Shown: piece after piece, positions 11,331 through 60,412 of the stretch | Layout of the letters: every line of letters begins with the position of its first letter | Numbering within the stretch: the stretch's first letter is position 1 | From: Spirochaetaceae bacterium | GTDB lineage: Bacteria; Spirochaetota; Spirochaetia; WTKD01 | Assembly: GCA_011524535.1 (NCBI GenBank) | Contig: WTKD01000014.1 | Span: 92,519-156,518, forward strand | Reading direction: 5' to 3' | DNA length: 64,000 nucleotides | The notes under the pieces: model-generated | What the model saw: the letters and a program-made list of their open reading frames with translations, nothing else | The model's database searches: none | What the model was told of the DNA's origin: nothing | Position numbers and translations under genes: made by a program

Positions 11331-12541
11331 TAACCAGCGTCATAATTCTAACGATATCTCTTTTCTTCTCTCTTTTCTTTTCCGCTTGCGAAACAGCCTA
11401 TACGTCATTACAAGCAGCACAGGTTCACACATTGGCTTCAAAACTGGGGAAACGAGGACGAATGCTGCGTTTTTTGTATAGAAATCCTAATCGCATCCTC
11501 GCAACGGTACTCATTGGAAACAATGTTGCAAATATCTTAGCAAGCGTAACCGCAACTCAGTTCACATTGCTGCGCTTCGGAAGTAGTGCATTTGGAATCA
11601 TGACCGGATTGCTCACTCTGGTGATTTTGATTTTTTGTGAAATCATTCCAAAGCAATTCGCCTTGAAACAAAACGAAATTATTGTCAGCCTTAGCCTCCA
11701 CCTTCTCTATTTTTGTTTCGTTGTGCTATCCCCTGTTGTATACATTTTGTCCTACATCACGCGTTTTTTTGATGGGAAGCAAAATACAAAAAAAACAATT
11801 ACCGTGCAAAGCGTAGTGCAAACATTAAATCAAGCACAACAAATGGGGATGCTCAATCAAACCCAAGCTCGCATTATTCAAGGGGGCATGGCATTTTCAA
11901 GTTTAACCGCCTCGAACATTATGACCCATCGGAAAAATGTTCTGATGATTTCAGAATCTGCAACGATTGCGCAAGTATCAGAATTGTTTGCCAAGGAAGA
12001 TCATTCTCAGTTTCCGGTGTACAAGGGTAATCGTGAAAATATTGTGGGTATTATTCGAGTAAAGCATCTTCTAAACCGCAATGCACACGAATCCATTGAA
12101 ACCTATTGTGAAGTGCCCGAATATATCCCCTCACAAAGAAGCATACAAGAATTTATGCATTTTTTCTCAGAAAGTGGAAGGATGCTCATTGTTCTCGATG
12201 AATACGGGGGTTTTTCAGGAATCATAACCTTTACCGACATTTTGAACAGCATTATCGGTATGCGCGACGACGGTGAATACAGTCTACACTACACCCAGAT
12301 AGGAAAAAGAACATTTCATATAAAGGCAGACACCCCTATCAGCCTGCTTCGATCAATTTTTCCCGTCCTTCCAAGCACATCGCGCCTTGCATATACGATT
12401 GGCGGTTATCTGGTGCACCTTGTAGGAAAAATACCATCAAAAAATGAAATAATCAAAACCGATTTTGGTACATTTACAGTACAGGATGTCAAAAAAACGC
12501 AGATAATCAGTCTTATCTATCACCAAAACGACCCATCCTAA
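11327..12541 (+). CDS. CNNM/CorC-family membrane protein with CBS domains
   Basis: The 404-residue protein has an N-terminal DUF21 (CNNM) membrane domain of three to four helices (residues about 1-145). A tandem CBS pair follows (about 185-310; signatures NIMTHRKNVLMI, FPVYKGNRENIVGIIRVKHL, LIVLDEYGGFSGIITFTDIL), and then a CorC_HlyC C-terminal domain. Relatives act in magnesium or cobalt homeostasis; 'hemolysin' in database names is usually misleading. It overlaps the upstream DUF4230 gene by 4 bp. Confidence 0.87.
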   Translation: MITSVIILTISLFFSLFFSACETAYTSLQAAQVHTLASKLGKRGRMLRFLYRNPNRILATVLIGNNVANILASVTATQFTLLRFGSSAFGIMTGLLTLVILIFCEIIPKQFALKQNEIIVSLSLHLLYFCFVVLSPVVYILSYITRFFDGKQNTKKTITVQSVVQTLNQAQQMGMLNQTQARIIQGGMAFSSLTASNIMTHRKNVLMISESATIAQVSELFAKEDHSQFPVYKGNRENIVGIIRVKHLLNRNAHESIETYCEVPEYIPSQRSIQEFMHFFSESGRMLIVLDEYGGFSGIITFTDILNSIIGMRDDGEYSLHYTQIGKRTFHIKADTPISLLRSIFPVLPSTSRLAYTIGGYLVHLVGKIPSKNEIIKTDFGTFTVQDVKKTQIISLIYHQNDPS

Positions 12542-12552
12542 CCAGAGATCCA

Positions 12553-13527
12553 CTAATAGTATTGTTCGTTGTCGTATTGAAAAACTTCTTTTTTTGTAAT
12601 ACTGTTCATCCGTGCAAGCGCTTCATCGTATGTGCATTCGCATGTTAATTCAAAATACGTCTTCTCTTTCCCGCCGGCCGTGAGCAATGTAGGCCTTTTC
12701 ACAATTTCTTGGATATCTTCTTCGGTTTTACCGTGCTTTAAAAGATAGTTACCAAAATTTATCTCTCTGTATGGGACAGGTTCGTGTTCTGGTGTATACA
12801 AATATCCGCTTCCATCAATAAGTTCTTCGCAAGGGCTTTTTGAAACATGTAAAATTCTATTTGCTGGAGTATGTTCATCCATGATCTTGTGTTCCAATAG
12901 AATTTTTTTCATGCGAGCCGTAACTCCTGCAAAATGCTTATGCCCTCGAAGTGTTCGAAACAACATAACAGCGATATCTGTCTCTTTACAATTCATTTTC
13001 AGCAAAGCTGGTATATCATAATTGATCACGTATAGCGGTTTTTTTCCTTCGCGATGAATACGCTTTACCGATTGTCCGTTTACTTTGAGAAGATCCGCCG
13101 GTGCTACCCATGTCTGAAACAATTCTTCTGCGCTATAAGACAATAAATCCATCGCTTCAAAGGCTCCACAGATTTCCGCATCAGCAATCGGCTCTTTCAA
13201 CCACGCTTCCAAACGTGTTTTCATCTTGTCGGTGAAAAAGCGAATGCCATGCAAGGCAAACAAATGTCGCAAAACGTAATTGCGCTCAATGACATGATGG
13301 TGCGTCATAAAATCACCCGGCAAATTAGCTAGGTATACCAACCAAAAATCTTTCCTATAATACGGGTCTGCTTCGATAACTTTCATCAATTTGCTTTCGA
13401 CGAGTACTCCATTCGAAGATGGACGTAAACACACGAAAATGTCTTGCGCGGTATGATTATCCGCTGGACCACTGTATGGCTTTAATATCGAAGGTTTCCT
13501 GATAGACTCGGCGGAACCCTGGTTCAT
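12553..13527 (-). CDS. Conserved-looking protein of unknown function, overlapping pheT
   Basis: The ATG at 13527 overlaps the pheT stop in an ATGA junction and gives 324 residues. A longer frame exists to 13587 but lies inside pheT. The protein is soluble and mixed alpha/beta, with many Lys, His and aromatic residues. Segments include PYYRKDFWLVYLANLPGDFM and MLFRTLRGHKHFAGVTARM. I see no known motif, signal peptide or membrane segment. Translational coupling suggests a role or history linked to PheRS or tRNA, but that is inference only. Confidence 0.7.
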   Translation of the reverse strand: MNQGSAESIRKPSILKPYSGPADNHTAQDIFVCLRPSSNGVLVESKLMKVIEADPYYRKDFWLVYLANLPGDFMTHHHVIERNYVLRHLFALHGIRFFTDKMKTRLEAWLKEPIADAEICGAFEAMDLLSYSAEELFQTWVAPADLLKVNGQSVKRIHREGKKPLYVINYDIPALLKMNCKETDIAVMLFRTLRGHKHFAGVTARMKKILLEHKIMDEHTPANRILHVSKSPCEELIDGSGYLYTPEHEPVPYREINFGNYLLKHGKTEEDIQEIVKRPTLLTAGGKEKTYFELTCECTYDEALARMNSITKKEVFQYDNEQYY

Positions 13528-44465: not shown

Positions 44466-45881
44466 ATGCGATCATCGCACAAATCAATCTCTGGAGATCA
44501 ATTTACGCCGCCTCGTTTGGTGAAAGCCCTCTCTGCTCCCGTTCTTCTCGAATCCGCATCACTAAGCAGTCATCAAGGGCGATATTCTATCATTATGGTC
44601 GATGAAGCCTTTCGCCTCGAACAACTCGATGAAGGCGTTTTACTCCGTCATCCATCAGAGCGAAGAGGAGCCAAGAGCTTTCTCAATCATACCAATATCC
44701 TCGATTGCCTCCCTTCGTTCTACGAACAACACGATGATCTTGGTGATAACGAATTACCCATTCCGGCAGCTGGTATCGGATATCTCGGATTTCCTTATTG
44801 TCGGTATTGCGACACCATAGAGTATTCACGATCCGATCATCGCGGTGGCGATCCAATTGGTATACCCGACGCGATTATCCTCTTTGGCCATTCCTATATT
44901 ATCTTTGATCATTATCATGATCGTCTGCATGTAGTTGCCCTGAGTTATAGTGAAGCCGAAATCGATACAGAAGAAAGGGTTTCGGATCTCATTACACGCA
45001 TACAGGATAAGTATGTGCATGGCCCCATACCAAAGGATGATCCTGCTCCATTTCAGCACCTCGAAAAAAAAAGTAGCAGCGAAGAAGGATATACAGAGGG
45101 TGTACGAGCGCTCCATTCTGAATTTAGAAACGGAAACCTCTATCAATGCGTGCTCTCGAGGAGAATAACGATAGAATCTTCCCTTGACCCATTCGTTGCC
45201 TATCGGAGGCTACGCTCGAGTAATCCATCCCCCTATATGTTTTTTCTTGATTTTGGTTCCTTCCAGTTAATCGGAGCCTCACCGGAAATGCACGCAAAAG
45301 TAAGCAATGGGGAAGCCACCATCCGCCCCATAGCAGGGACCTGTCGTCGTGGGAAGACAGAGGCTGAGGATAAAACCCTCACCGAAGCCTTACGTGCGCA
45401 TCCAAAAGAGCGTGCAGAGCATCTGATGCTGGTGGATCTTGCCCGCAATGATCTTGGGCGAATTTGTGAGCCGGGAAGCGTAACAGTCACCGAATGCATG
45501 GTTCCTGAATATTTTTCAAGCGTGATCCACCTCACATCGAATGTTGTTGGCACATTGAACCCCGATACAAAGCCAGCCGATGTTATCCACGCAACATTTC
45601 CCGCCGGCACCCTGAGCGGGGCGCCAAAAATAAGAGCCATCGAAACATTGCCCAAGCATGAACTTTTTTCACGCAGTTTTTATGGAGGCATCATTGGACA
45701 TTTTGAAGCCCGGGGAAACTTTGATTCTTGCATAGCCATACGGAGTGCCCTATGCAAAGACGGAACGTGGACCGTCCAGGTCGGAGGTGGCATAGTTATG
45801 GATTCTGAGCCCGAGCGGGAACTCGAAGAAACCAAGGAAAAATCTGCCGCTGTTCTGAGAGCCCTTGGATTAAATCCATGA
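44466..45881 (+). CDS. trpE: Anthranilate synthase component I
   Basis: The 471-residue protein converts chorismate to anthranilate. The PIAGT motif (Ala, not the Lys of PabB) and the trp-operon context identify TrpE. The N-terminal LLESASLSSHQGRYSI matches the tryptophan feedback site. SPYMFFLDFG, ERAEHLMLVDLARNDLGRIC and AGTLSGAPKIRAIE are intact. The residue after PIAGT is Cys where Arg is common, a single-base change of unknown effect. Confidence 0.93.
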   Translation: MRSSHKSISGDQFTPPRLVKALSAPVLLESASLSSHQGRYSIIMVDEAFRLEQLDEGVLLRHPSERRGAKSFLNHTNILDCLPSFYEQHDDLGDNELPIPAAGIGYLGFPYCRYCDTIEYSRSDHRGGDPIGIPDAIILFGHSYIIFDHYHDRLHVVALSYSEAEIDTEERVSDLITRIQDKYVHGPIPKDDPAPFQHLEKKSSSEEGYTEGVRALHSEFRNGNLYQCVLSRRITIESSLDPFVAYRRLRSSNPSPYMFFLDFGSFQLIGASPEMHAKVSNGEATIRPIAGTCRRGKTEAEDKTLTEALRAHPKERAEHLMLVDLARNDLGRICEPGSVTVTECMVPEYFSSVIHLTSNVVGTLNPDTKPADVIHATFPAGTLSGAPKIRAIETLPKHELFSRSFYGGIIGHFEARGNFDSCIAIRSALCKDGTWTVQVGGGIVMDSEPERELEETKEKSAAVLRALGLNP

Positions 45882-45975
45882 TCCTAAATACTCTATTGAA
45901 GCGAAAAACATCTCTTTTCTCGAAATACTTCATATTTGTCCAATATCCACCAATAGTTAGCGAAAAGAGGCGATT

Positions 45976-47571
45976 ATGATAATCATCATCGATAATTTTG
46001 ATTCATTTACCCACAACATTTTTCAGTATGTTCGAGAATTTAGCGAAGAGCCCTGTTCTGTATTTCGCAATAATCAATTAAGCGTTGATGAAGTTCTAGC
46101 CTTAAACCCATCGTTGATTATTCTCTCGCCTGGTCCAGGAAGGCCCGAAGATGGTGGTATATCATTGAAATTGGTCAAACGAGTCGCTGGGAAAATACCA
46201 CTGTTCGGGGTCTGTCTCGGCCATCAAATCATTGCAGCTGCCTTTGGCGCCTCGATTACCCTTGCGGAAACCGTTATGCACGGTAAGACAGACACCATCT
46301 CCGTCGATCGATCGGGTCTGTTCTGTAATAGTCCAAAGACATTTTCTGTAATGCGCTATCATTCACTCTTAGTGGACGAATCGACCCTTTCTTCGGAATT
46401 TATTATCAGTGCTCGGAGCAGTTCCAACGAAATCATGGGAATACGCCACAAACAATCCGATCAAGATGGGTTTGCCTTCATTGAAGGGGTACAATTTCAT
46501 CCGGAATCTATTGCAACCGAGGAAGGCAAGCGAATGATCGCAAATCTATTTGATTATAGACGTGAATCATTTCGATCTGAAAGGCTCCTTGGAACTCTGA
46601 TGGAAAAAAAAGAACCAAATACCGAAGATGTCCGCCGATTTATTGAAGATTTAACCAAGGGGATTGTACAACCTACCCTGGCTGCGGCGATTATCGGGGC
46701 CTTTGGTCAGATGCCAAGCGCAGCAACCATCGCTGCGGCGGCTACCATACTTCGAAAAAAAGCTCCTCGAATATATTCCGATACACCGATCCTAGATACC
46801 TGTGGAACAGGAGGAGACGGAGCCCATACATTCAATATTTCATCGCTCGTCGCCTTGCTTTGTAGCGCCTGCGGAGCAAAGGTTGCCAAACACGGTAACC
46901 GTGCGGTTAGTTCTTCTTCGGGGAGCGCCGACCTCTATGAATCATTGTCCATCCCCATCGATCTTTCTGTCGAAAATGCAACTCGCTGTCTCGCCGAAAC
47001 GGGTTTTTGCTTTTTATTTGCCCCACGATACCATGGTGGACTCCGATTTGCAGGTCCCATACGTGCGGCTATGGGTGTGAAAACAATTTTTAATATTTTG
47101 GGACCTCTTTGCAGCCCAGCCCAAGCAGAACACCAGCTGATCGGAGTTTACGACGATGCATTGAGACCCATTGTTGCTAAAGCCGCATTATTGCTTGGTG
47201 TTAAACGGGTCCTCGTCGTTCATTCTGGCATCGATGAAATATCGGTATCTCGCCCAACCAAGGCGAGCCTTGGAGAAAACGAAAGCATCAAGGAACTCAC
47301 CATCGATCCGCGTGATATGGGCATCTCATTCTACGATGATTCAGCATTGGTCGCAGAAACAGCCCAGGATATTACTGAACAACCACGCCTTTTCTTGAAC
47401 GGTGATGAATGCAACCCCGCTTTACGCGATGCGGTGCTGATAAATACAGCCGCTGCCTTGTTTGTGGGCGAATTATGCCCGAGTATATCTGAAGGGTTTT
47501 CTCTCGCTCGCAGGACCTATGAACAAAACAAGCAATCAAAGCTCTTGCAGACCTTGCAGACATGGAGCTAG
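45976..47571 (+). CDS. trpGD: Fused anthranilate synthase glutaminase and anthranilate phosphoribosyltransferase
   Basis: The 531-residue fusion has a class I glutamine amidotransferase (1-190; SPGPGRPEDGG, catalytic Cys in FGVCLGHQI, His/Glu in VQFHPES) and then TrpD (about 200-531; DTCGTGGDGAHTFNISS, AKHGNRAVSSSSGSAD, RYHGGLRFAGPIRAAMG, NILGPLCSP). It supplies ammonia to TrpE and joins anthranilate to PRPP. GAGGC before the ATG serves as ribosome site. It follows trpE by 94 bp. Confidence 0.95.
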   Translation: MIIIIDNFDSFTHNIFQYVREFSEEPCSVFRNNQLSVDEVLALNPSLIILSPGPGRPEDGGISLKLVKRVAGKIPLFGVCLGHQIIAAAFGASITLAETVMHGKTDTISVDRSGLFCNSPKTFSVMRYHSLLVDESTLSSEFIISARSSSNEIMGIRHKQSDQDGFAFIEGVQFHPESIATEEGKRMIANLFDYRRESFRSERLLGTLMEKKEPNTEDVRRFIEDLTKGIVQPTLAAAIIGAFGQMPSAATIAAAATILRKKAPRIYSDTPILDTCGTGGDGAHTFNISSLVALLCSACGAKVAKHGNRAVSSSSGSADLYESLSIPIDLSVENATRCLAETGFCFLFAPRYHGGLRFAGPIRAAMGVKTIFNILGPLCSPAQAEHQLIGVYDDALRPIVAKAALLLGVKRVLVVHSGIDEISVSRPTKASLGENESIKELTIDPRDMGISFYDDSALVAETAQDITEQPRLFLNGDECNPALRDAVLINTAAALFVGELCPSISEGFSLARRTYEQNKQSKLLQTLQTWS

Positions 47572-48062
47572 ATTCAAGAACATAGCTCACTGCAAAAATA
47601 TATCAACTTGAACAATCAGGAACGCTCATCATCGAAACTGGCGATGAATTCTCTGCTGTGTCTTTCTTATTTCACTCGCACATGTACGGAGAAACACCGG
47701 CTTGCTATGAATTTTTGAACGACTATAATACATTCTATAAGAACTCATCAGCATCAAGAAAGCTCTACTAGGATTTCAACCTTTATTTGCCTGCTTATCA
47801 CTATAATAATAACCGAATAGAAAACAATAATAGTGACCGAATAGGCTAATTTCTAAAAAATCGGCTCTGAATGCGGAACCCCGTGTTTTTATCCCTCCTA
47901 TGTTCCTAACAGATTTATTATAGAAAAATTCTGCGATCACGTGATTCTCTTCAATCTCATTCGACTATATGCATGCCTCGTTTCTACTTCTCAAAATGTC
48001 TATTTAATAGATGTGCAACAAACAACCGTGCACCGAGATGTGAATTTGCATACAATATATGC
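47572..48062 (+). other. 490-bp interruption inside the trp operon
   Basis: A frame without a start codon runs from about 47588 to TAG 47771 (product rich in Ser, Phe and Tyr, ending SASRKLY), which may be a gene remnant. An imperfect direct repeat ending GACCGAATAG or AACCGAATAG occurs at 47803-47820 and 47826-47844. No intact gene is seen. The right end holds the trpCF promoter. Confidence 0.4.
48051..48056 (+). promoter_or_regulatory. -10 element TACAAT 6 nt before trpCF
   Basis: TACAAT is followed by six bases and the ATG at 48063. No ribosome site and no good -35 are visible. Confidence 0.42.
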
Positions 48063-49616
48063 ATGCATACCGATATTCTAAGAAATATAATCGCAAAAAA
48101 GCTCGAATTTCCATCTACCTACCCCATTCCCACAAAAAGAGAATGTCCCATTACACCATTCTTGCAATATCCAGGTATCATCTGTGAAATAAAACGCAAA
48201 AGCCCCTCCAAAGGGGTTATTTCTTCCGATTTGGATCCGGTTTCCCAGGCCCAAACATATGTCTCGTCGGGGATACGCTCCATCTCGGTTTTGACCGAAG
48301 AACATTATTTTCACGGAAGCATAGCGGACCTTCTCGCGGTAAAGCGAGCCCACCCAGATTGTGCCGTATTGCAAAAAGATTTTATTCTTTCACAACGAGA
48401 TGTGGAAACCGCTTACCTCATTGGGGCTGATGCCATTTTACTGATCGCTTCAATCCTTGATCCAGAAAGCATGGAGCAGTTGATAAAAAAAGCCAGAGAA
48501 TACGGGATGCAAACCCTTGTTGAAGTCCACACGAAAGAAGAAATAGAGGCCATTGCCCCCCTCTCACCCCCCTTGATTGGTATCAATGCCCGAAACCTGA
48601 ACAATTTCACGGTTGACCCACTCTTACCGCTATCTTTACGTTCACTAATCAGCTGGAACGCTCGTTGCGTTTTTGAATCGGGAATACACTCGCAACAAGG
48701 ACTTCTGTTGGCATTGTATGGCGGATTCGATGCCGTGCTTGTAGGGGAATCTGTTGTAAAAAATCCTGAACTTACAGAAGTTCTCGTTAAAACATATAGG
48801 CGTCATCGAGAAGAAAGCAACGAAACGAATACTGCTCCCTCAGTGCAGAATGAAAAAAAGTTAGAGGATTTTACGCTAAAAAGAACCCCTTCTGCGGATG
48901 AAGATTCTCTTTATGGTAAAAACTCTTGTGTTTTTAACTCTTCTTTTTGGCAAACAATAGCCAAAAGAATAGCAAACAATAAGGAAGAAGGGCTCCCACT
49001 TGTGAAAATTTGCGGCATATGTTCGAGAGAGGACGCATTGCGCGCGCTCGAATTGGGGGCAGACATGCTGGGGTTTATCCTCGCCGAATCGAAGCGTAGG
49101 GTTGATCCGGCTTTTATCGCATCCCTTGCAGACCTCAATATAATAAAAATTGGTGTTATAGAACTTAAAAACCCCGCTAGAGGGACCCCTCCACGTATTC
49201 CACAAGAGATTCGATCCCTTCTAAGCTCAAATATGCTCGATGCCTTGCAATTGCACGGTGATGAATCTCAAGAAACCGTCACATCGGTGTTCCCCTGCTA
49301 TAAGGCCCTCAGAATAGGAAATAAAAACGATATCCTCCACGTAGACCAGCAGGCAACTCCGCGGGTACTCCTAGATGCGTATAGCCCAAAGGCTCGAGGA
49401 GGGACCGGGCTACGCATCTCCGATGAACTTTTGTCATCGCTACCTTCTGAATTCCCCCTTTGGCTGGCTGGCGGCCTTTCGCCAAACAATGTAGAAGAAA
49501 TTGTGCGGAAATATCGCCCAGAATGCATAGATATATCGAGTGGACTGGAAATAAGTCCTAGGGAGAAATCTCACGAAAAAATGAAGCTCTTTTTTTCCTC
49601 CTTGAGGCGTTGTTGA
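48063..49616 (+). CDS. trpCF: Fused indole-3-glycerol phosphate synthase and phosphoribosylanthranilate isomerase
   Basis: The ATG at 48063 gives 517 residues; a longer frame from 47973 adds 30 unconserved residues. The TrpC barrel (about 1-255) has ICEIKRKSPSKGVIS, AVLQKDFILSQRDV and LIGINARNLNNF. A linker (about 255-320) rich in charged residues follows. The TrpF barrel (about 325-517) has KICGICSRED with the catalytic Cys, GADMLGFILAESKRRVD, LLDAYSPKARGGTG with the catalytic Asp, and LAGGLSPNNVEE. Order is C then F, as in E. coli. Confidence 0.93.
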   Translation: MHTDILRNIIAKKLEFPSTYPIPTKRECPITPFLQYPGIICEIKRKSPSKGVISSDLDPVSQAQTYVSSGIRSISVLTEEHYFHGSIADLLAVKRAHPDCAVLQKDFILSQRDVETAYLIGADAILLIASILDPESMEQLIKKAREYGMQTLVEVHTKEEIEAIAPLSPPLIGINARNLNNFTVDPLLPLSLRSLISWNARCVFESGIHSQQGLLLALYGGFDAVLVGESVVKNPELTEVLVKTYRRHREESNETNTAPSVQNEKKLEDFTLKRTPSADEDSLYGKNSCVFNSSFWQTIAKRIANNKEEGLPLVKICGICSREDALRALELGADMLGFILAESKRRVDPAFIASLADLNIIKIGVIELKNPARGTPPRIPQEIRSLLSSNMLDALQLHGDESQETVTSVFPCYKALRIGNKNDILHVDQQATPRVLLDAYSPKARGGTGLRISDELLSSLPSEFPLWLAGGLSPNNVEEIVRKYRPECIDISSGLEISPREKSHEKMKLFFSSLRRC

Positions 49617-49922
49617 TTATAGTGGGGTAACTATATGCCTCAAGAAACAGATCCATGGCTATTGGATTTTTCTATGATTACTTCTGACTAGATTCCGTGT
49701 CTCGATCGGCTACACATGCAGTCAGAATAAAAAGCCGAAAAAACAGTATATTCCATTCCTTCTTAAATCCATCTCTTTCTCTGGAAGCATAAAAAAGCTT
49801 TTCGATAAGTCCCAATTGAAATATCTTGTAAACATTCAAGACATCTATGGTTTTTCTTGACCGATGATCAGTAAAAATCCTATCTATACCCCATGTAAGG
49901 CAAATTGATATACTTCTATAAC
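49617..49922. other. 306-bp spacer between trpCF and trpB
   Basis: An 18-codon frame at 49635-49691 starts ATG and contains a single Trp, which is weak as a leader peptide. A minus-strand frame (49678-49935) has no ribosome site and overlaps trpB. No terminator-antiterminator pair is obvious. The right end has the trpB promoter. Confidence 0.4.
49909..49914 (+). promoter_or_regulatory. -10 element TATACT 8 nt before trpB
   Basis: TATACT is followed by eight bases and the ATG at 49923. No good -35 is visible. With the spacer, it suggests separate transcription of trpBA. Confidence 0.4.
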
Positions 49923-51257
49923 ATGACGGATTCAAATCGTATACCTCATACAGGGTATTTTGATCGTTTTGGTGGGCGATACAGCCCCGAAGTGCTCATT
50001 CCTGCCCTAGACACTCTCGCACAAGCCTTCGAAGAAGCAAGAAATGATCCTGCTTTTTGGCAGGAATTCAACAGACATGCCCTAGAATACATAGGAAGAC
50101 CCACTCCCCTTCTCCATGCCCAACGCGCCAGTGAAAGTCTGGGCGGAGCCCAAATATATATAAAACTGGAGGGTCTTGCAAATACAGGAGCGCATAAAAT
50201 AAACAACGCCCTCGGTCAAATTTTGCTTGCAAAACGTTTGAAAAAATCACGCATCATCGCGGAAACCGGAGCGGGGCAGCATGGAGCAGCTACAGCCGCT
50301 ATGTGTGCTCGGTTTGGTATTCCCTGTCGAGTATATATGGGAAGAACCGATTGGCGCAGACAATATCCCAACGTCTATTACATGGAACGCTTTGGAGCAG
50401 AAGTTGTTCCCGTTGACAGCGGAAGCAAGACCTTGAAAGACGCCGTAAACGAAGCCCTCAGGGATTGGGCAGAATCGTTCCTCGACACCCACTACATAAT
50501 AGGCTCTGCGCTTGGTCCTCATCCTTTTCCTACTATGGTTAGAGAATTTCAATCTATCATTGGAAGAGAGCTTATTGATCAACTCGCAACCAAAAATATT
50601 GCACCCAGTCATATTATCGCATCGGTGGGTGGTGGTTCGAATGCATTAGGGATTTTTTATCCCTATCTCCACGGACTCGCACAAGAAACGCTAGATTCTT
50701 CTTTGCAAAACGCGAAACTAGAAAAATATCTACAATCGGTCGAACATCCTTTATTGTTGGGGGTGGAAGCTGGAGGCAATGAGACGGGGCATGCATCTCG
50801 TATGAATGGCCGAGCAACGGAAGGTATCGTGCAAGGCTACAAGTCTTTCTTTTTAAGCGATGAAAACGGGCAATTGCTTCCAACACATTCGATTGCAGCC
50901 GGTCTCGATTATCCCGGTATTGGTCCTGAACTGGCGTCCTGGGGCGACGTAGGTAAGGTTATGTTCGATTCTGCAACCGATGAAGAAACCCTCGAGGCGC
51001 TTGATTTCTTTGCCCAACGAGAGGGGCTGGTCTTTGCATTGGAATCGGCACATGCAGCCGCGGCGGCAATAAAAATTGCACCAACACTCGATACACACCA
51101 ATCGATCGTTATACACATGTCTGGGCGTGGGGATAAAGACCTCTTTATCGCAGCAGCTCACCTTCAGCCCGAGCCTTGGGCTGAATTTCTGAGGCGTGAA
51201 CTAGATGATCTTGAACCTCATAATAAGCACAGCGCTGTACCGGGGGACAGTGAGTAA
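49923..51257 (+). CDS. trpB: Tryptophan synthase beta chain
   Basis: The ATG at 49923 gives 444 residues starting MTDSNRIPHTGYFDRFGGRY. The PLP Lys is in LANTGAHKINNALGQ, ETGAGQHGAATA is present, and GGGSNALGIF binds the cofactor phosphate. VEAGGNETGHASRMNG and HSIAAGLDYPGIGPE are typical of TrpB1. It has a short C-terminal extension beyond the usual 400 or so residues. It condenses indole with serine. Confidence 0.95.
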   Translation: MTDSNRIPHTGYFDRFGGRYSPEVLIPALDTLAQAFEEARNDPAFWQEFNRHALEYIGRPTPLLHAQRASESLGGAQIYIKLEGLANTGAHKINNALGQILLAKRLKKSRIIAETGAGQHGAATAAMCARFGIPCRVYMGRTDWRRQYPNVYYMERFGAEVVPVDSGSKTLKDAVNEALRDWAESFLDTHYIIGSALGPHPFPTMVREFQSIIGRELIDQLATKNIAPSHIIASVGGGSNALGIFYPYLHGLAQETLDSSLQNAKLEKYLQSVEHPLLLGVEAGGNETGHASRMNGRATEGIVQGYKSFFLSDENGQLLPTHSIAAGLDYPGIGPELASWGDVGKVMFDSATDEETLEALDFFAQREGLVFALESAHAAAAAIKIAPTLDTHQSIVIHMSGRGDKDLFIAAAHLQPEPWAEFLRRELDDLEPHNKHSAVPGDSE

Positions 51258-51265
51258 AAAACTCT

Positions 51266-52006
51266 ATGCAAAATAATAGAATTATGGCCCATTGCGTTTC
51301 GCATTTCCCCGATAAAGACGGATATCTACGTATCGTAGAGGCATTGGTCAATGGCGGTGTATCGTATATCGAAGTACAATTTCCATTTTCGGACCCTTCC
51401 GCCGACGGTGTCCCAATTCAAGAAGCTTGCAATCAAGCCATTTTGAATGGAAAATTTAGTATAGAAGAGGGGTTTGACTGTCTCCGAGAAATCAGCGAGC
51501 GATATCCCGTTCCTATATTCCTTATGACATATGCCAACCTTGCGTTTCGCTATGGAATCAAAGCCTTCATCAAGTCCTGCAAGGCATGCAAAATCGCTGG
51601 CGTAATTATCCCCGACCTTCCATACGATGCAAACGAAGACCTCCTTCGTATAGGGAATGAACAAGGGGTTCCTATGATCCCTGTTGTGACTATTTCTACT
51701 CCATTAGAGCGAATGCATTTTTACGAAGGTTGCGACTGCGTATATGTGTCTTTGCGCAGCGGTATTACCGGAAAACAGACTATAATAAGCAGTCAAATCC
51801 TTAATCGATTACATGAAATTCGTGATTTCTTTCCCGCTATAATAGGGGGCTTTGGTATTCAAACCTCGGAACAAGTACAAACGATTGCGCCTCACGTAGA
51901 CATTGTCGTTGTCGGCACAGCTATTCTGAAATCCTTCGAACAAGCTCCCACAGAAAACAAATTTGCAGTACTACAATCTTTTGTGTCTTCATTGGTGCAT
52001 GCATAG
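51266..52006 (+). CDS. trpA: Tryptophan synthase alpha chain
   Basis: The 246-residue TIM barrel cleaves indole-3-glycerol phosphate and passes indole to TrpB. Catalytic Glu and Asp are in YIEVQFPFSDPSADGVPIQ, followed by FLMTYANLAFRYGI, GVIIPDLPYDA, and GGFGIQTSEQV in the phosphate site. It is slightly shorter than E. coli TrpA (268). It starts 8 bp after the trpB stop, so it is coupled to it. Confidence 0.94.
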   Translation: MQNNRIMAHCVSHFPDKDGYLRIVEALVNGGVSYIEVQFPFSDPSADGVPIQEACNQAILNGKFSIEEGFDCLREISERYPVPIFLMTYANLAFRYGIKAFIKSCKACKIAGVIIPDLPYDANEDLLRIGNEQGVPMIPVVTISTPLERMHFYEGCDCVYVSLRSGITGKQTIISSQILNRLHEIRDFFPAIIGGFGIQTSEQVQTIAPHVDIVVVGTAILKSFEQAPTENKFAVLQSFVSSLVHA

Positions 52007-52036: not shown

Positions 52037-54133
52037 TTAATGAGATTCATAACAGGGCGCAAAAAACATAACTTCAGGTGGACATAATTCCAAAAAACGA
52101 TGAATTGGTATCTTTTCTGTGAACAAAAACCACCATTCTTCAAAGCGTTCTTGTCTCGTATAAGGAAGAATCTCATGAGGAATAGCCTGTGTACTCCGCA
52201 CAAACCATTGATAGGGTAAGGATGATGCTTCGCATGGAACGGTCGGAATTTCACTTGCGGGAACTCCGAAACTGCTCCTGGATCTGTTAACAAGTACATC
52301 AACAAGATCGGACAATGCCGCATTGGCTGCAGGTTCGACGCCGGTTCCTGTCCCTTGCAAAAATAGGTCTCCGACCGCATCGGAAATACAGTGCAGCGCA
52401 TTGTGTGCATTATCAACCTGTGCGAATCGACCAGAACGTCGGTGCAAAGAAGGCCCAACCCATGCTGTCACTCGATCTCCCTCGTCGCGGGCATGCCCAG
52501 ACAATTGTATCCGGTACCCATATCTTTCAGCAAAAACTATATCATGGTAATTTACCTTCTCAATACCATAAATGGGCATTGAATCGATGAGATAATTTTT
52601 GCCAAATCCGATACAGGACAATACATTCAGTTTGAATGCGGTATCATATCCAGAAACATAACGTCTCCCAAAGAGTGAATTGGTGTCCGTGTCGTTTCTC
52701 TTCTGAAGCAGCTCCGTAACGCTGCTTTTTTCCAAACCGATGGTGTCTAGTATCATATTGCTTGGTGCACTGAGCAAGGCCCTGATTTCATTAATATGAT
52801 CCGAAGCAAGAGCTTCTCGAATGGTTTTCAATACGGGAATTCCACTACCAACAATCGATTCAAAAGCAAAGGATGTTTGTAATGATTCGGCATGTTGTAT
52901 GATCGAAAGTCCATGTTCGGCTAGGATGCGTGCATTGGTCGCTATAACGGATTTCCCGTGTTCCAAAGCGGTTTCGACAAGTTTCCGCCCCTTCTTCGCA
53001 TCTCCATGTGCCTCTACTATTATATCTATGTCTTCACGGACAACCAGTTCTTCATCGGAATGCAACTGCCCGGTCTTTTCTGAGCTTTGATGCGCCGGTT
53101 CACTGCTCTTCGTCACGGTAGTCATGTGGATATACGATCCTGTTTTTGTTTCTATCACATCCCTCCGCTTGTAGAATTGTTCGACGATCGCATGTGCTCG
53201 CTCGGTTTTCCCAACAATCCCAACGACCACCCGCCGCGTCCCATTCATCCGCTTTTTGAATTCATTGACGCATATATGGAGCCAATTGCTATGCAAAAGG
53301 GTCGCGTACGAACGCCATCGATGTAATAATTCTCCGTGTTGTTCTGCGTTGAAATAATTTGAGGGTTTTTCTATATCTGTTCCCTTTTCAACATCTCGAG
53401 CATATTCATTTCCGAGGGTTTCTGCTTCGTATTCGAGGTGGTTGAACAAGAAAAAATGGGGTTTTTTTGTATTTTGCACCGCGTATAACCCCGATTCTTT
53501 CGATTCTGATACTATTTGTAATTCGTCAACAGCGATGACATCATCTCTTTCGATGCCCGTGTGACGAGAAACAGGCACCAAGAAACTGTCATCGAATCCC
53601 AAGAACAGAGGATTGCTAGCTTCTAATGTATGAGAGAATAACCCGAAAGCTTTTTTTTTCAATTTTCTTTTTTGTATATCAAAATATGCATATAGGGCCG
53701 CTTGCGCACTCCAACATACAAACAAAGTGCACACCCTATGCCTATCCAAAAAAGCAAATAATCCCCGCAATTCTTCCCAATAATCCACTTGTTCATACTC
53801 AAGAAGTTCTACTGGAGCTCCAGTAATTATAACACCGTCTATGGGTATAGATTTTTCCTGGAGCGATTGCCATGTGTGATAAAATGCATTGAGATGTTCT
53901 GCTGATACATGGGTCGGGGTGTATGATTCCATACGAATGAACACCAATTCCACATTCACTACGGTATTTGATAGTACACGAGCAAATTGTGTCTCGGTTT
54001 CTATTTTTTTCGGCATGAGATTTATCAGGCCAATGCGGAGAACCTCTTGACTCTCTTTTTTTTCAAACACATGGTATCCCTCTTTTTGCAACACCGCAAA
54101 GGCCGGATGATCTGCCTTAAGCATAATTGGCAT
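52037..54133 (-). CDS. Fused homoserine O-acetyltransferase (MetA) and homoserine dehydrogenase-like protein
   Basis: The 698-residue protein joins two consecutive methionine-pathway functions. Residues 1-297 are a MetA-type acyltransferase: PKKIETETQFARVL, TGAPVELLEYEQVDYW, catalytic Cys140 in FVCWSAQAALY, and His232/Glu234 in NHLEYE. Glu109 (PVE rather than PLG) is the residue linked to acetyl-CoA use. Residues 298-698 resemble homoserine dehydrogenase: VVVGIVGK, VGSGIPVLKTIREAL and GYDTAFKLNVL, which keeps the catalytic Asp497 and Lys501. The usual TANK and NGTxNY motifs are altered (ATNAR, SAPSNM). metY lies 66 bp upstream on the same strand. Confidence 0.85.
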   Translation of the reverse strand: MPIMLKADHPAFAVLQKEGYHVFEKKESQEVLRIGLINLMPKKIETETQFARVLSNTVVNVELVFIRMESYTPTHVSAEHLNAFYHTWQSLQEKSIPIDGVIITGAPVELLEYEQVDYWEELRGLFAFLDRHRVCTLFVCWSAQAALYAYFDIQKRKLKKKAFGLFSHTLEASNPLFLGFDDSFLVPVSRHTGIERDDVIAVDELQIVSESKESGLYAVQNTKKPHFFLFNHLEYEAETLGNEYARDVEKGTDIEKPSNYFNAEQHGELLHRWRSYATLLHSNWLHICVNEFKKRMNGTRRVVVGIVGKTERAHAIVEQFYKRRDVIETKTGSYIHMTTVTKSSEPAHQSSEKTGQLHSDEELVVREDIDIIVEAHGDAKKGRKLVETALEHGKSVIATNARILAEHGLSIIQHAESLQTSFAFESIVGSGIPVLKTIREALASDHINEIRALLSAPSNMILDTIGLEKSSVTELLQKRNDTDTNSLFGRRYVSGYDTAFKLNVLSCIGFGKNYLIDSMPIYGIEKVNYHDIVFAERYGYRIQLSGHARDEGDRVTAWVGPSLHRRSGRFAQVDNAHNALHCISDAVGDLFLQGTGTGVEPAANAALSDLVDVLVNRSRSSFGVPASEIPTVPCEASSLPYQWFVRSTQAIPHEILPYTRQERFEEWWFLFTEKIPIHRFLELCPPEVMFFAPCYESH

Positions 54134-54199: not shown

Positions 54200-55483
54200 T
54201 TAAACTGTCTGCAATACATTGTCCAAATCTGCAATAAGATCATCGGCATCTTCGAGACCAACCGATAAACGTACGATGCCCGGCGAAGAAAAAGACTCTT
54301 CTTTTTGTTGATCGCTGAGTTGCGAATGGGTAGTCGTTGCTGGATGAATGATAAGAGAACGAGAATCGCCTATATTCGCCACGTGTGAGAATAATTTCAC
54401 ACCTTGTATGAGTTTTTCTCCTGCCTCAATACCGCCCTTGAGCTTCACGCTAAACACCGAAGGAACTCCATTAGGGAAATATTTTTTCTGTAACGTTTGT
54501 TGATTGGTGTCTTTTCGGTATTGCGGGTAATACACCTCTGCAACTTTGGGGTGCTTGTGCAAAAACTCCGCAACCTTTGCCCCATTGTATATGTGTTTTT
54601 CAATCCTAAGTGGTAATGTTTCAATCGCGGTAAGTGTTGTAAAAGCCGAATGCGGAGCCAAGGGGGCCCCCAAGTCACGTAATCCTACCGCAATCGAACG
54701 GACTGTGAAGGCGAGCTCTTTAAAATCGTTTGCAAAGGAAATTCCGTGATAAGACTGATCTGGCTCCACCAATAATGAGAATTTATCATTCTGCGTCCAA
54801 TCAAATCGTCCAGAATCGATGATAATGCCCCCGAGTGTGGTTGAATTTCCGGTTAAAAACTTGGTCAAAGAGGCAAGAACTATATCGGCTCCGTATTCTA
54901 TCGGACGCAGCAATGATGCCGTTGGAATAGTGTTATCCACAACGAGAGGAATTCCTGCTTCATGGGCGATGTTTGCAATGCCTTCGATGTCTGCTATGGC
55001 TCCAGAAGGGTTCGAATAACTCTCGATAAATAGAGCTTTTGTTTTATTTGTAATCCCAGATTTAATCCCTTCTAGGTCATACACCGATCGAAACACCGTG
55101 TTCCATCCAAATTGTTTAAACGTATGTCCAAATTGATTTATGCTTCCTCCATACAACTCTTTTGCGGCAACGATCTCATCCCCGGCTTGCAAAAGATTCA
55201 GCAGCGCCGTCAGCTGAGCAGCATGTCCCGAAGCGGTCGCAACTGCACCTATACCCCCCTCAAGAACCGCCAAACGTTGCTGGAGAGCCCCTACGGTCGG
55301 GTTCATCAAGCGCGTATAAATATTGCCAAATTCTCGCAATCCAAACAATCGTTCGGCATGACCCGAATCTTTGAATGAATAAGAAACATTGTGATAGATA
55401 GGAACGTGTAAAGATCCTGTTGCATCTGGAGCTTCTCCAGCATGCACCGCTGATGTGTTAAATTTTTGTTTGTTTTCAGACAT
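54200..55483 (-). CDS. metY: O-acetylhomoserine aminocarboxypropyltransferase (sulfhydrylase)
   Basis: The 427-residue PLP enzyme makes homocysteine from O-acetylhomoserine and sulfide. It belongs to the Cys/Met metabolism family: NTSAVHAGEAPDATGSLHVP, NIYTRLMNPTVGALQQRLA, ATASGHAAQL, VVDNTIPTASLL and the PLP Lys in LASLTKFLTGNSTTLGG. The 420-residue size and the MetA partner with an acetyl-CoA-type site support MetY over cystathionine synthase. AAGGA precedes the ATG. Confidence 0.94.
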   Translation of the reverse strand: MSENKQKFNTSAVHAGEAPDATGSLHVPIYHNVSYSFKDSGHAERLFGLREFGNIYTRLMNPTVGALQQRLAVLEGGIGAVATASGHAAQLTALLNLLQAGDEIVAAKELYGGSINQFGHTFKQFGWNTVFRSVYDLEGIKSGITNKTKALFIESYSNPSGAIADIEGIANIAHEAGIPLVVDNTIPTASLLRPIEYGADIVLASLTKFLTGNSTTLGGIIIDSGRFDWTQNDKFSLLVEPDQSYHGISFANDFKELAFTVRSIAVGLRDLGAPLAPHSAFTTLTAIETLPLRIEKHIYNGAKVAEFLHKHPKVAEVYYPQYRKDTNQQTLQKKYFPNGVPSVFSVKLKGGIEAGEKLIQGVKLFSHVANIGDSRSLIIHPATTTHSQLSDQQKEESFSSPGIVRLSVGLEDADDLIADLDNVLQTV

Positions 55484-56318: not shown

Positions 56319-57260
56319 ATGAAACAACCAACCTTACTACTCATCTTTCTCTTCTTTTCATCGTTTTTTGTTGCCTGTTCAAGCAATGGACTAATCACCA
56401 CGTACACCATCGAAGACTGGAATGATCTTGAATATCTCAGCACACGTTTAGGAAGCCAGGAAACTCCACTCAATGGACACTACAAACTGGTCGCCGATAT
56501 CGAAGGCCCCGATTTCAGCGAAAATGCTTCAGGATTTTTCCCGATAGGCACAAAATCTTTCCCGTTTCAGGGAACCTTTGACGGGAATGGGTTTACCATC
56601 AGTAATCTAGTTATCAATAGAATAAGACAAGAGAATATAGGGTTATTTGGGGTCACAAAGAATGCCACGCTCACAAACGTAAAATTGAAGAAAGTAACAA
56701 TTAGAGGAAATAAAAACGTTGGAGGGCTCATCGGGAACATTCAAGACAATACCTCGGTCTTCAATAGCTCGGTAAGCATCGGTGAGCAAGGTACCATAAT
56801 AGGCGGCGAGAACTCTGGAGGATTAATTGGTCTTATTGAGGGATCTGCCACTATAGAGAACAGTTCGGTGGATGGCGTTGTTTCAGGAATTCTTTCTACT
56901 GGTGGATTGATCGGAAAAATGTCCAATGCTACCAGTACAATAGAAAGAAGTTACTTTGCGGGCGGTGTCACAAGCAAAGATTTAGACCTATATCTCTTTA
57001 CCAACTGGAAATTGGCTTCAGCGGAATCTACCGGCGGGTTAATTGGATATGTCGATTCAACGACTCTACGTATCTCTAACAGCTCGATATCAAGCAATAG
57101 CGCCGTAACCGGCGAATCGGCGGTGGGAGGTTTCATCGGTAGCATTAATGGGTCGGACGTAATAATTTCAGGCAGTCCCCTATCCGATGATGTCATTACC
57201 GATGGAGATCAATTGAATCGCATGATTGGAGAATCCTCCGTTGGTGTTACTATTATATAG
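56319..57260 (+). CDS. GLUG-repeat lipoprotein A
   Basis: The 313-residue protein has a lipoprotein signal ending VACS (Cys near residue 20). An N-terminal module follows (IEDWNDLEYLSTRLG, HYKLVADIEGPDF, FFPIGTKSFPFQGTFDGNGF), then NIGLFG, and then five GLUG-type repeats of about 28-30 residues with GGLIG or GGFIG cores. GLUG repeats form an extended beta solenoid and are common in surface proteins. TATAAA lies 8 nt before the ATG. It is the first and shortest intact gene of a five-copy tandem array. Confidence 0.85.
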   Translation: MKQPTLLLIFLFFSSFFVACSSNGLITTYTIEDWNDLEYLSTRLGSQETPLNGHYKLVADIEGPDFSENASGFFPIGTKSFPFQGTFDGNGFTISNLVINRIRQENIGLFGVTKNATLTNVKLKKVTIRGNKNVGGLIGNIQDNTSVFNSSVSIGEQGTIIGGENSGGLIGLIEGSATIENSSVDGVVSGILSTGGLIGKMSNATSTIERSYFAGGVTSKDLDLYLFTNWKLASAESTGGLIGYVDSTTLRISNSSISSNSAVTGESAVGGFIGSINGSDVIISGSPLSDDVITDGDQLNRMIGESSVGVTII

Positions 57261-57525
57261 GCGATAAAGCAAAAGAATAATTAGCAGAAAAACGCTCTAA
57301 CATCGCATATGACATAGAGAAGCTATCTGCTTCATCGCACAAAAATATGTGTGAAAACATCAAAATAACTCCTTTCAGCGGGATTTCCCTCGTTTCTGTA
57401 CTTTTTATACGAACACTTCCCTCAAAAAATGGTAATTGTTCTTTTCCTTTAATTTTTTCTATCACAACAAGATTTCGCCTTTGATGAGATAAAACTCGAT
57501 ATTTTCTTATATCGCTGGTATACAA
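57253..57525 (-). CDS. Doubtful small ORF between GLUG genes
   Basis: A 90-residue frame starts at TTG with AGAAGGA about 6 nt before it, which is the main support. The product is basic at its N-terminus and hydrophobic at its end, with no recognised motif. It overlaps the end of GLUG gene A by 8 bp on the other strand. It may be spurious. Confidence 0.28.
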   Translation of the reverse strand: MYTSDIRKYRVLSHQRRNLVVIEKIKGKEQLPFFEGSVRIKSTETREIPLKGVILMFSHIFLCDEADSFSMSYAMLERFSANYSFALSPI

Positions 57526-57628
57526 GAAAGTCCTTCTTGCATATAATCATTCTGGATCATGCAGTAATTATGTCAAACAAATTAGCAAAAAAACCCATAT
57601 TTCATGTGTGTAAAAAGAAGGATATCTT

Positions 57629-58563
57629 ATGAAAAAATAGTGTTATTTACAATTATTGTGACTTTTCTTTTTGGAGGATGCGATCTCTTTAATCTCCCTG
57701 AAAAAAATAGAGAAGGACCAAGCAGTGGGGCGCTTTGGAAAATTCCAGTTCCAACAACCCTACAGCAAACCAATAGAGTATACATCATCAACAACTGGTC
57801 TTATCTCGAATTTCTCAGTAAAAATCTTGGTGGATCCCTTAATGAAGGTCGGTACCGATTGGCTAATGATATTTTTTTCAGATCTCGATTTTGACGGGAT
57901 AGATTCTGATGATTATGCGGACATGGGTTCTCCAATAGGAACACACGAAAACCCATTCATCGGCACTTTTGATGGCAATAATTTTACCATCAACCACCTT
58001 ACTATTGATCAAAAAATTGGACTATTTGGTCAAAATATTGACCTGGAAATTCAAAGTATTGGACTATTCAGTGCAGCCGAAGGGGGCACATTCAGAAATA
58101 TGCATTTTAAACATGTAGATGTCACTAGAAGTGTTCCAGTTGCTGGTCTCATTGGATTATTTACCGGAGATAGTGAACTATATAATATCACCGTGAACGG
58201 TGAGATACATGGTCAGTGTATGACCGGGGGGATAGTAAATAGTGATATTACTAGGATACATAATGGCTCTGTGTCAGCCAAGGTCACAAGCTCTGATTTA
58301 TCATCAGTGATACTCAATCTAGTTCAAGATACCAATCCTTTTACTTTAATTATCGGTGATTGGTTGGTAATATTAATGTGGTTATTGTCGAAATTTCAGA
58401 TAGTTCTGTGTCTGGATCGGTTACGGGAATAGAAGCAACGGGCGGACTAATCGGATCCATCGAAAATGCAGAAGTCGATATTTCGAGAAGCCCTGCAGAT
58501 GGATACGATAGCATTGGAGAAAATAAACTCTCAAAAAATAGTATACACACATCCATGCCATAA
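57629..58563 (+). pseudogene. GLUG-repeat lipoprotein B, broken by three single-base indels
   Basis: AAGGA and ATG 57629 are followed by six A residues and TAG; seven A would give MKKIVLFTIIVTFLFGGC, a lipoprotein signal. The frame then runs to a T7 tract at 57872-57878, where T6 would join ANDIF to SDLDFDGIDSDDY. At 58358 a lost G (GGTGAT for GGTGGAT) breaks GGLVGN. With all three repaired the product is about 310 residues, the size of gene A, with the same module (NWSYLEFLSKNLG, PIGTHENPFIGTFDGNNF) and GLUG repeats. Three breaks in 1 kb point to decay rather than chance errors. Confidence 0.82.
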
Positions 58564-58924
58564 CGTTTGAATAATGATTTCTTGCGTCCGATAAAAGATG
58601 TACTAGAGATTATTATTCACGTACATGTTCAATTTTTTTTCCTATTTAATAGGACAGATATGATGCATTTTATGCATTCGCTATTTATATTCACGTACAA
58701 TACATGCTTCTACCTGATGGGTAGGGCATGTTTGATACTGATTGAACCCCCCGGTCATGGTTCTTACGCGGAAAATATCTGTATTTTTTTGTAAAAATCG
58801 CAAAAAATGTAGTTTGTGCTTGCTAAAAATTTCGCATCGTGCTATATATCTCTTGGAAGATATATTTCTATGTGGTTTGGTAATAAAAATACCTACTCAC
58901 AAAAAAAAGATAAGGAGAAATATT
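58564..58924 (+). other. Intergenic region before GLUG gene C
   Basis: This 361-bp AT-rich stretch has no convincing gene. It holds the putative promoter of gene C and a frame that continues upstream of its ATG without a start signal. Confidence 0.45.
58820..58848 (+). promoter_or_regulatory. Putative promoter of GLUG gene C
   Basis: TTGCTA (58820-58825), a 17-bp spacer and TATATA (58843-58848) lie about 76 bp before the ATG, giving a leader with an AAGGAG ribosome site. This gene is therefore not of the leaderless type. Confidence 0.4.
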
Positions 58925-60412
58925 ATGAGAATAGTAATGTTATGTATGATCATTTTTGCATTAGTGTTAGGTGCTTGTAGCAGTAGTGGAACATCTTCCT
59001 CTTCTGCCACTTCCCCTTCTGGAGAAAATAATTCAGAGGACGAAATACCACCAGCCCCTAATAACCAGAGAAACGAAAACGTTAACCAACCAGCCGAAGG
59101 AATCGCAATGGACCCATGGGATATTCCAGCAAGAGAAGAGGCATTAGATATTGATACCCAAGGACAGTTCATAATTGAAACATGGCGAGACCTAGAGTAT
59201 CTAAGTGAAAATCTCGCAAACAACGAAGAGAATCCACCAACTTATGTAGTGACCGATGACATTACTTTTCCTACTATAGAAAATGACCAACTAAATGAAC
59301 CCTATGTTAGGAATGGAGGATTCACCCCCATCGGAAACGCTGAGGCCCCATTCACCGGATCTTTCTTTGGAAATAACCATGTCATCAACAATCTAAAGAT
59401 AACAGGCTCGGATGACGACGGATTAGGACTGTTCGGGGTTGTAGATATCATCACCATTGAAAACCTTAGGTTGCATAACTCTGATATAGAAGGAGCTGGT
59501 CCTCTTGGAACCTTAATAGGAAGGTCTAACGAGCAGATACGTATTAGCAACGTATCAGTAACAGAAAGCAAAATTCGAGGTCATTCGAGAATCGGCGGGT
59601 TAATTGGATACATGAACCGGAGTAATGTCAGCAGCCACATTATATCTAGTACCTTCTCCGGCGAGATTTCTGGGAATGCGCTAGTAGGTGGGCTGGTTGG
59701 ACTATCAGAAGTTAACAGTAGAATCAGAGAGAGTGGTGTAACCATCAATATAAGAGAACGTGATCAGCAGGCCGCCCCCTTCGAGAGTATTGGTGGTCTG
59801 ATTGGGAAACTTGACGGAAACAACAATACTATCATCAACGCTTACGCAAAGATTGAAATGAACCTTCCTCAAAACATAGTCGGAGGTCTAATCGGAATAT
59901 TTGAGGGCACAAACAACAGTATCCAAAGCAGCTATGTTTCTGGTTCCATTACTGGAAGAAACAATGTCGGAGGTCTAATCGGAATATTTCGGGGCTCAAA
60001 CAACAGTATCGAAGATAGCTATGCTTCTGGGACTATCAATGGAGGCAGCGCTGTAGGAGGATTAGTTGGATTATTCGTAGGTGCAGGACCTAATACTCCA
60101 CAAAATAGTATTTTACGTAGCTATACCAATGTTGAAGTAAGCGGAGACCTTAATATTCTTTCCATTGGTGCTCTTATAGGGCAAATCAACGATGGAAACA
60201 CAAATATTAGAAACGTCTACTGGAATGGACAAAGAGCTGCACAAAGCATAGGTATCAACGACATCCGTAATAATGGACAAATAGTTGAAACATCGGCTAT
60301 CGATAACATATCAACTGACGAATTTTCTGACTTCACTTCTACCACTAACAACGGACCTTGGATATTAACCCCAGGTGAATGGCCTCAGCTGAGCTGGCAG
60401 GTAGAACAGTAG
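58925..60412 (+). CDS. GLUG-repeat lipoprotein C
   Basis: The ATG at 58925 with AAGGAG before it gives 495 residues; a longer frame to 58742 lacks a start signal. The lipoprotein signal ends VLGACSSSG, followed by a Ser/Thr/Pro/Asn-rich linker (about 20-60). The shared module follows (FIIETWRDLEYLSENLA, GGFTPIGNAEAPFTGSFFGN), then about eight GLUG repeats and a C-terminal part ending LTPGEWPQLSWQVEQ. Two adjacent repeats are nearly identical at the DNA level with an 87-bp period (59881-60054). Confidence 0.87.
   Translation: MRIVMLCMIIFALVLGACSSSGTSSSSATSPSGENNSEDEIPPAPNNQRNENVNQPAEGIAMDPWDIPAREEALDIDTQGQFIIETWRDLEYLSENLANNEENPPTYVVTDDITFPTIENDQLNEPYVRNGGFTPIGNAEAPFTGSFFGNNHVINNLKITGSDDDGLGLFGVVDIITIENLRLHNSDIEGAGPLGTLIGRSNEQIRISNVSVTESKIRGHSRIGGLIGYMNRSNVSSHIISSTFSGEISGNALVGGLVGLSEVNSRIRESGVTINIRERDQQAAPFESIGGLIGKLDGNNNTIINAYAKIEMNLPQNIVGGLIGIFEGTNNSIQSSYVSGSITGRNNVGGLIGIFRGSNNSIEDSYASGTINGGSAVGGLVGLFVGAGPNTPQNSILRSYTNVEVSGDLNILSIGALIGQINDGNTNIRNVYWNGQRAAQSIGINDIRNNGQIVETSAIDNISTDEFSDFTSTTNNGPWILTPGEWPQLSWQVEQ
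59881..60054 (+). repeat. Tandem 87-bp intragenic repeat in GLUG gene C
   Basis: Two copies start CGGAGGTCTAATCGGAATAT at 59881 and 59968. They match closely over most of their length, coding 29-residue GLUG units. Such repeats can gain or lose units by slippage or recombination. Confidence 0.75.

Follow-up and report, generated by a model that had tools for sequence, protein, structure and literature searches.

The routes to threonine and methionine diverge at homoserine. Fusion of homoserine dehydrogenase (HDH) to another enzyme of the aspartate pathway is represented by ThrA and MetL, bifunctional aspartate kinase-homoserine dehydrogenases in which the HDH is active, and within the MetA family a glutamate at the position of B. 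cereus Glu111 is tied to the use of acetyl-CoA. In Xanthomonas the met operon has the order metA-metB-hom, so that HDH is encoded beside metA (PMC7270179). The substrate pocket of the S. tokodaii HDH (StHSD) comprises Lys102, Gly156, Thr157, Tyr183, Glu185, Asp191 and Lys200 (PMC5893615), and in the P. horikoshii enzyme the homoserine hydroxyl is held by Lys116 and Lys215 and the cofactor phosphate by backbone nitrogens of the glycine-rich loop (PMC4495429).

Here we describe a gene joining MetA to an HDH-like half, found in a stretch of 64,000 nucleotides (the window) from a Spirochaetaceae bacterium. Its first half resembles MetA (PF04204; PDB 2ghr, 2vdj, 2h2w) over residues 1-290, in the catalytic triad and in an acetyl-type Glu109, and, like metA in many relatives of the same class, the gene adjoins metY; it differs from MetA in lacking the YQxTP C-terminus, in reading NH.EY for GH.EY and in carrying 403 extra residues. 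The second half shares its predicted fold, domain order, Asp497/Lys501 and dimerisation segments with HDH (PF03447 and PF00742, with or without ACT; PDB 3mtj, 6dzs, 4pg4), but it lacks the cofactor and substrate motifs and a recognisable ACT domain, and it sits behind MetA. ThrA and MetL likewise have HDH fused to another aspartate-pathway enzyme, with a different partner, whereas in Xanthomonas the genes are separate and the fused half described here is without the catalytic residues. Both domains belong to known families, and HDH beside metA and HDH fused to aspartate kinase are already known. A literature search, in which subscription journals were thinly covered, found no account of a MetA/HDH fusion, in line with a preliminary description of the locus, which took the fusion as not known among described enzymes, and none of an HDH as a pseudoenzyme.

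A MetA-HDH fusion gene next to metY

The fusion gene and its upstream neighbour were divided into the following features:

52037..54133, minus strand: metA::HDH-like fusion gene, 698 aa, a single open frame
53264..54133, minus strand: MetA (homoserine O-acetyltransferase) half, residues 1-290, from Pfam HTS and alignment to 2ghr/2vdj
53234..53263, minus strand: junction, residues 291-300, from alignment and sequence
52850..53236, minus strand: Rossmann-type nucleotide-binding part of the HDH-like half, residues 300-428, from Pfam, column comparison and AF2 model
52295..52846, minus strand: dimerisation and putative former catalytic part of the HDH-like half, residues 430-613, from Pfam Homoserine_dh and column comparison
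52040..52294, minus strand: C-terminal tail, residues 614-698 (85 residues), at the position where HDHs carry an ACT domain
54200..55483, minus strand: metY, O-acetylhomoserine sulfhydrylase, 427 aa, from a TIGR01326 match

The frame comprises 698 codons with zero internal stops and begins with an ATG preceded by a plausible ribosome-binding site (ggggaaag); the preliminary description had placed it at exactly these coordinates, leaving the strand unstated. The source genome is a draft of 14 contigs and 1.42 Mb, and its assembly carries the same frame (C5:144558-146651, 100%) well inside a 186-kb contig. The domain search proposed in that description found three Pfam families in the one frame, all above their curated cut-offs: HTS at 2-290 (E 3e-92), NAD_binding_3 at 340-425 (6e-8, 33.8 bits) and Homoserine_dh at 433-611 (1e-26, 93.9 bits), the last two upholding the assignment of the C-terminal half as HDH-like. 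The junction between the halves is short. MetA homology stops at residue 290 and HDH homology runs from about residue 300, leaving about 9-10 residues; NEFKKRMNGT stands in place of the MetA C-terminal YQxTP motif, with HDH-like sequence directly after it.

The upstream neighbour was correctly recognised as metY: it matches TIGR01326 with 542 bits (over the cut-off) and shares the strand of the fusion gene, at a distance of 66 bp. No terminator-like site was seen in the 66-bp gap, and the two genes are probably co-transcribed, judging from their arrangement. An Rfam scan of 45-58 kb for SAM or other riboswitches gave no match. On the other side, convergent trp genes finish 30 bp past the fusion stop codon. 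This trp operon (window 44466-52006, plus strand, convergent with the metY-metA::HDH pair) contains two fused genes of its own, TrpG::TrpD (glutamine amidotransferase::anthranilate phosphoribosyltransferase, 531 aa) and TrpC::TrpF (547 aa). Beyond metY, at 56319-60412 of the window on the plus strand, there is a series of ORFs that are lipoprotein-like and contain GLUG repeats; where they overlap in different frames, at 57604-58432, they resemble a single broken copy.

The MetA half is probably a working enzyme

The MetA half scores 309 bits against Pfam HTS, where the cut-off is 27, and shares 41-46% identity with many plain MetAs from its class; judged by such scores, its homology to MetA cannot be due to chance. 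The closest PDB entry is 2ghr, with whose catalytic residues the triad Cys140, His232 and Glu234 is aligned, just as these residues had been named beforehand. Glu109 (in GAPVE) occupies the position of B. cereus MetA Glu111, an acetyl-type residue consistent with MetY as the neighbour, and Arg246 (EYARD) is retained. Variants are present as well, the GH.EY motif reading NH.EY and CWG reading CWS. Of 73 columns strictly invariant in 20 MetAs of the class, 57 are retained, whereas other MetAs of the class keep 91% or more, and the MetA-family score is 312 bits compared with 388-478 for most of them. The match to NCBIfam NF047918 (327 bits) falls below the cut-off of 460.5, as does that of the MetA from the class-mate G314 (417); this cut-off is a score threshold and not a functional residue, so the half is still called MetA. 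By column retention and family score the MetA half has itself drifted.

Pathway gene content was checked by single-family searches. A MetA family search found no second MetA in the source genome, and a MetX family search gave no match; the genome encodes MetE, and no member of the S-methyl_trans family was found in it. Because no other MetA or MetX was found and MetE is present, the MetA half, with its triad and Glu109 retained, is probably the working homoserine O-acetyltransferase, catalysing the committing step for methionine.

Loss of cofactor and substrate residues in the HDH-like half

The HDH homology of the C-terminal half is real (E 1e-26 to 1e-62), and the fusion is still over the cut-off of NCBIfam NF004976 (212 vs 205 bits). 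The half was compared with 37 HDHs, in which 85 columns are near-invariant (conserved at 85% or more). It retains 46 of the 85, whereas the real HDHs range from 83% to 99%, and the second HDH of the same genome retains 88%. In a maximum-likelihood tree its terminal branch is 8.6 changes per column long (median 0.33).

The changes include columns that are invariant in all 37 HDHs. The GxGTVG nucleotide motif reads GKTERA, G308 of the GxGxxG pattern being retained and the other two glycines lost (G310T, G313A). TANK has become ATNAR, with alanine (K401A) for a lysine present in 37/37 comparison HDHs. NGTTNY reads SAPSNM, the NGT loop being SAP at 455-457 (N455S, G456A, T457P), and GYAEADPTFD reads DTNSLFGRRY (G483D, A485N, E486S, D492Y), with loss of the Glu (E486S) and Asp (D492Y) of YAEADPxxD. 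The Asp and Lys of GxDxxxK are retained as Asp497 and Lys501; both this retention and the loss of TANK and NGTxNY had been noted in the preliminary description and were seen again in the column comparison. When aligned with StHSD, six of the seven pocket residues are replaced, the sole survivor being the Lys200 equivalent, Lys501. Only this lysine (Lys200/Lys215 in the two characterised enzymes) and Asp497, four residues earlier, are left from the catalytic neighbourhood.

From the loss of cofactor and substrate residues we infer that the HDH-like half is catalytically dead and would not reduce aspartate semialdehyde. With nearly all catalytic residues lost, a scaffolding or regulatory role is more likely for this half than an enzymatic one. 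A recent duplication of the resident HDH was considered as its origin and was weakly disfavoured (AU p 0.021; long branches).

HDH activity is also not needed from the fused half, since the genome provides it elsewhere. A separate intact HDH of 443 aa is encoded at C5:169100, on the contig of the fusion at a distance of about 24 kb, with complete motifs (GYGTVG, TANK, NGTCNF, IAEADP) and an ACT tail, and there are two aspartate kinases, one of them adjoined by thrC (threonine synthase). Close to this resident HDH, a 130-aa ORF is followed by a GHMP kinase that bears a galactokinase-type signature and is not a typical homoserine kinase neighbour (L070:10410-11684:- and L070:12198-13526:-).

Signs of retention in the HDH-like half

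The HDH-like half stays open for about 400 codons (1.2 kb) with no stop. Its core has a coding signal of 0.207 bits per codon, compared with 0.216 for other genes of the window; the signal is weaker in the C-terminal tail (0.108). Near-invariant positions that contact ligand or cofactor are retained in 3/11 cases, compared with 41/66 for the other columns (Fisher p 0.034), and those of the dimerisation segments in 9/10, compared with 35/67 for the others (p 0.024); both regional tests are post hoc, having been chosen with the pattern already in view, and at p about 0.02-0.03 they are weak.

An AF2 model of the HDH-like half, made with eight rows only, seven of them HDHs, has a pLDDT of about 80 for the greater part of the core, falling below 50 for most of the final 80 residues. 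When the model was searched with Foldseek, HDHs came top, with 3mtj best (E 1e-27) and a wide margin over other oxidoreductases, so that the structure prediction suggested in the preliminary description returned an HDH fold; since the other rows are HDHs, this match is partly built in and is supporting rather than independent evidence. A full-length model had a pTM of 0.48, with most of the MetA half below pLDDT 60. The tail (614-698) has no Pfam match and a model pLDDT below 50, and a few ACT-region columns (R646, Q661) are aligned in it. Taken from the model, the HDH fold appears to be retained in the C-terminal half; the argument for retention draws on one genome, the relatives compared including none of the same order.

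Distribution and a parallel fusion in the same class

No second MetA::HDH was found among 60 relatives, 393 phylum genomes, for which the HDH half and the MetA family both served as queries, and 395 class genomes. Outside the phylum the search consisted of pattern-based scans of genome contigs and viral contigs, which returned only plain HDHs or one plain MetA, and a plasmid tblastn gave no record spanning both halves. In plain relatives of the class, metA often adjoins metY, and its other flank carries genes from outside the pathway. In one relative of the class (G288, C1:76864-77758) metA is divided between two frames, which cover 163 and 142 profile positions; as read, this is a frameshift or a pseudogene.

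A different fusion is present in the class-mate G314, where MetA is fused to an aspartate kinase (AK) in a protein of 599 aa (L081:12811-14610:-; C1, about 924.8-926.6 kb). The cluster has the order metY - metA::AK - asd - hom (neighbours at L081:14614-15903, 11612-12586 and 10668-11615); the AK domain is ACT-less with intact KFGGSS and NWTDVDG motifs, and hom encodes a separate 315-aa HDH with no ACT and complete motifs. From its gene content, the cluster is apparently a full aspartate-to-homocysteine unit. No match to this type of MetA::AK was found in six other genomes of the genus. Both fusions consist of MetA with a C-terminal aspartate-pathway partner, with metY upstream and in the same class, but in G314 the partner is a motif-intact AK and HDH is a separate gene. 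Thus, MetA has been joined to upstream enzymes of the aspartate pathway at least twice.

Discussion

We propose, with moderate confidence, that the gene encodes a MetA with a C-terminal pseudo-HDH kept for dimerisation, regulation or docking. Judged by its conserved residues and family, the MetA half would move acetyl from acetyl-CoA to homoserine, after which the neighbouring MetY would make homocysteine and MetE would methylate it. The HDH-like half, presumed catalytically dead, would persist as a folded domain, with the dimer interface as the most likely reason: this interface could set the oligomeric state of MetA or regulate it, pointing to a scaffold or regulatory role. It could also support mixed dimers with the active HDH encoded elsewhere in the genome, placing MetA where homoserine is made. 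In this more specific form, the dead half would be an adaptor that docks MetA on the active HDH and diverts homoserine from threonine to methionine, which we consider doubtful.

The main rival is that the HDH-like half is a decaying passenger, the remnant of a once-active MetA::HDH that became redundant beside the resident HDH and is drifting, held in frame only by the essential MetA. The extreme divergence of the half (branch 8.6), a tail with no recognisable ACT and a weaker coding signal (0.108), the erosion of the MetA half as well and the small genome (1.42 Mb) all fit such decay. However, about 400 codons have stayed open with normal codon statistics in the core, the losses concentrate at ligand sites, with the dimerisation segments spared, and truncation right after MetA, an easy neutral event, is absent. 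On balance, we regard decay as somewhat unlikely.

The preliminary description had proposed that the two halves catalyse consecutive steps, so that homoserine could be passed on directly. Even in its strongly altered state, the HDH half might still make homoserine and hand it to MetA, given that Asp497, Lys501 and the HDH fold are retained, that NF004976 is still matched over its cut-off and that the two steps are consecutive; the metY-metA::AK-asd-hom cluster of G314 would dedicate the pathway to methionine. Against this, six of the seven substrate-site residues are replaced, including the lysine that holds the substrate hydroxyl (P. horikoshii Lys116, PMC4495429), here Ala401, Pro457 leaves no backbone NH at the NGT site, the YAEADPxxD loop is without its Glu and Asp, GxGxxG is broken (GKTERA for GxGTVG) and a complete HDH is encoded elsewhere in the genome. 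Bifunctionality is therefore improbable, and the C-terminal half is predicted to have no dehydrogenase activity, an outcome which that description had itself set against its interpretation: its account of the fusion, of the domains and of the lost motifs stands, and the bifunctional channelling is not supported, given the lost catalytic residues and the presence of a separate HDH.

It is very unlikely that the HDH-like half binds another ligand (for example homoserine, methionine, SAM or, in a new way, a nucleotide), serving as an allosteric sensor for MetA or catalysing another reaction: a pocket can outlast catalysis and the 85-residue tail sits where HDHs normally carry their C-terminal ACT region, but no ligand-binding motif was recognised and Foldseek places HDHs well ahead of other oxidoreductases. 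Finally, although the genome is a 14-contig draft, the joining of two genes by a frameshift or misassembly, raised at the outset as a way in which the fusion could be spurious, can be discounted almost entirely, with both halves in one uninterrupted frame across a 10-residue junction, consistent codon usage, a position well inside a 186-kb contig and divergence in both halves, which are not chimeric copies of intact genes.

A retained pseudo-HDH would tie MetA to a disabled form of the preceding enzyme while the active copy is encoded elsewhere, and would place a pseudoenzyme within central amino-acid metabolism; the adaptor form, if true, would be a pseudoenzyme-mediated metabolon at a branch point. 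The fusion offers a direct test of adaptor, regulator and relic, and the MetA::AK of G314 suggests that tying MetA to upstream pathway enzymes arose more than once.
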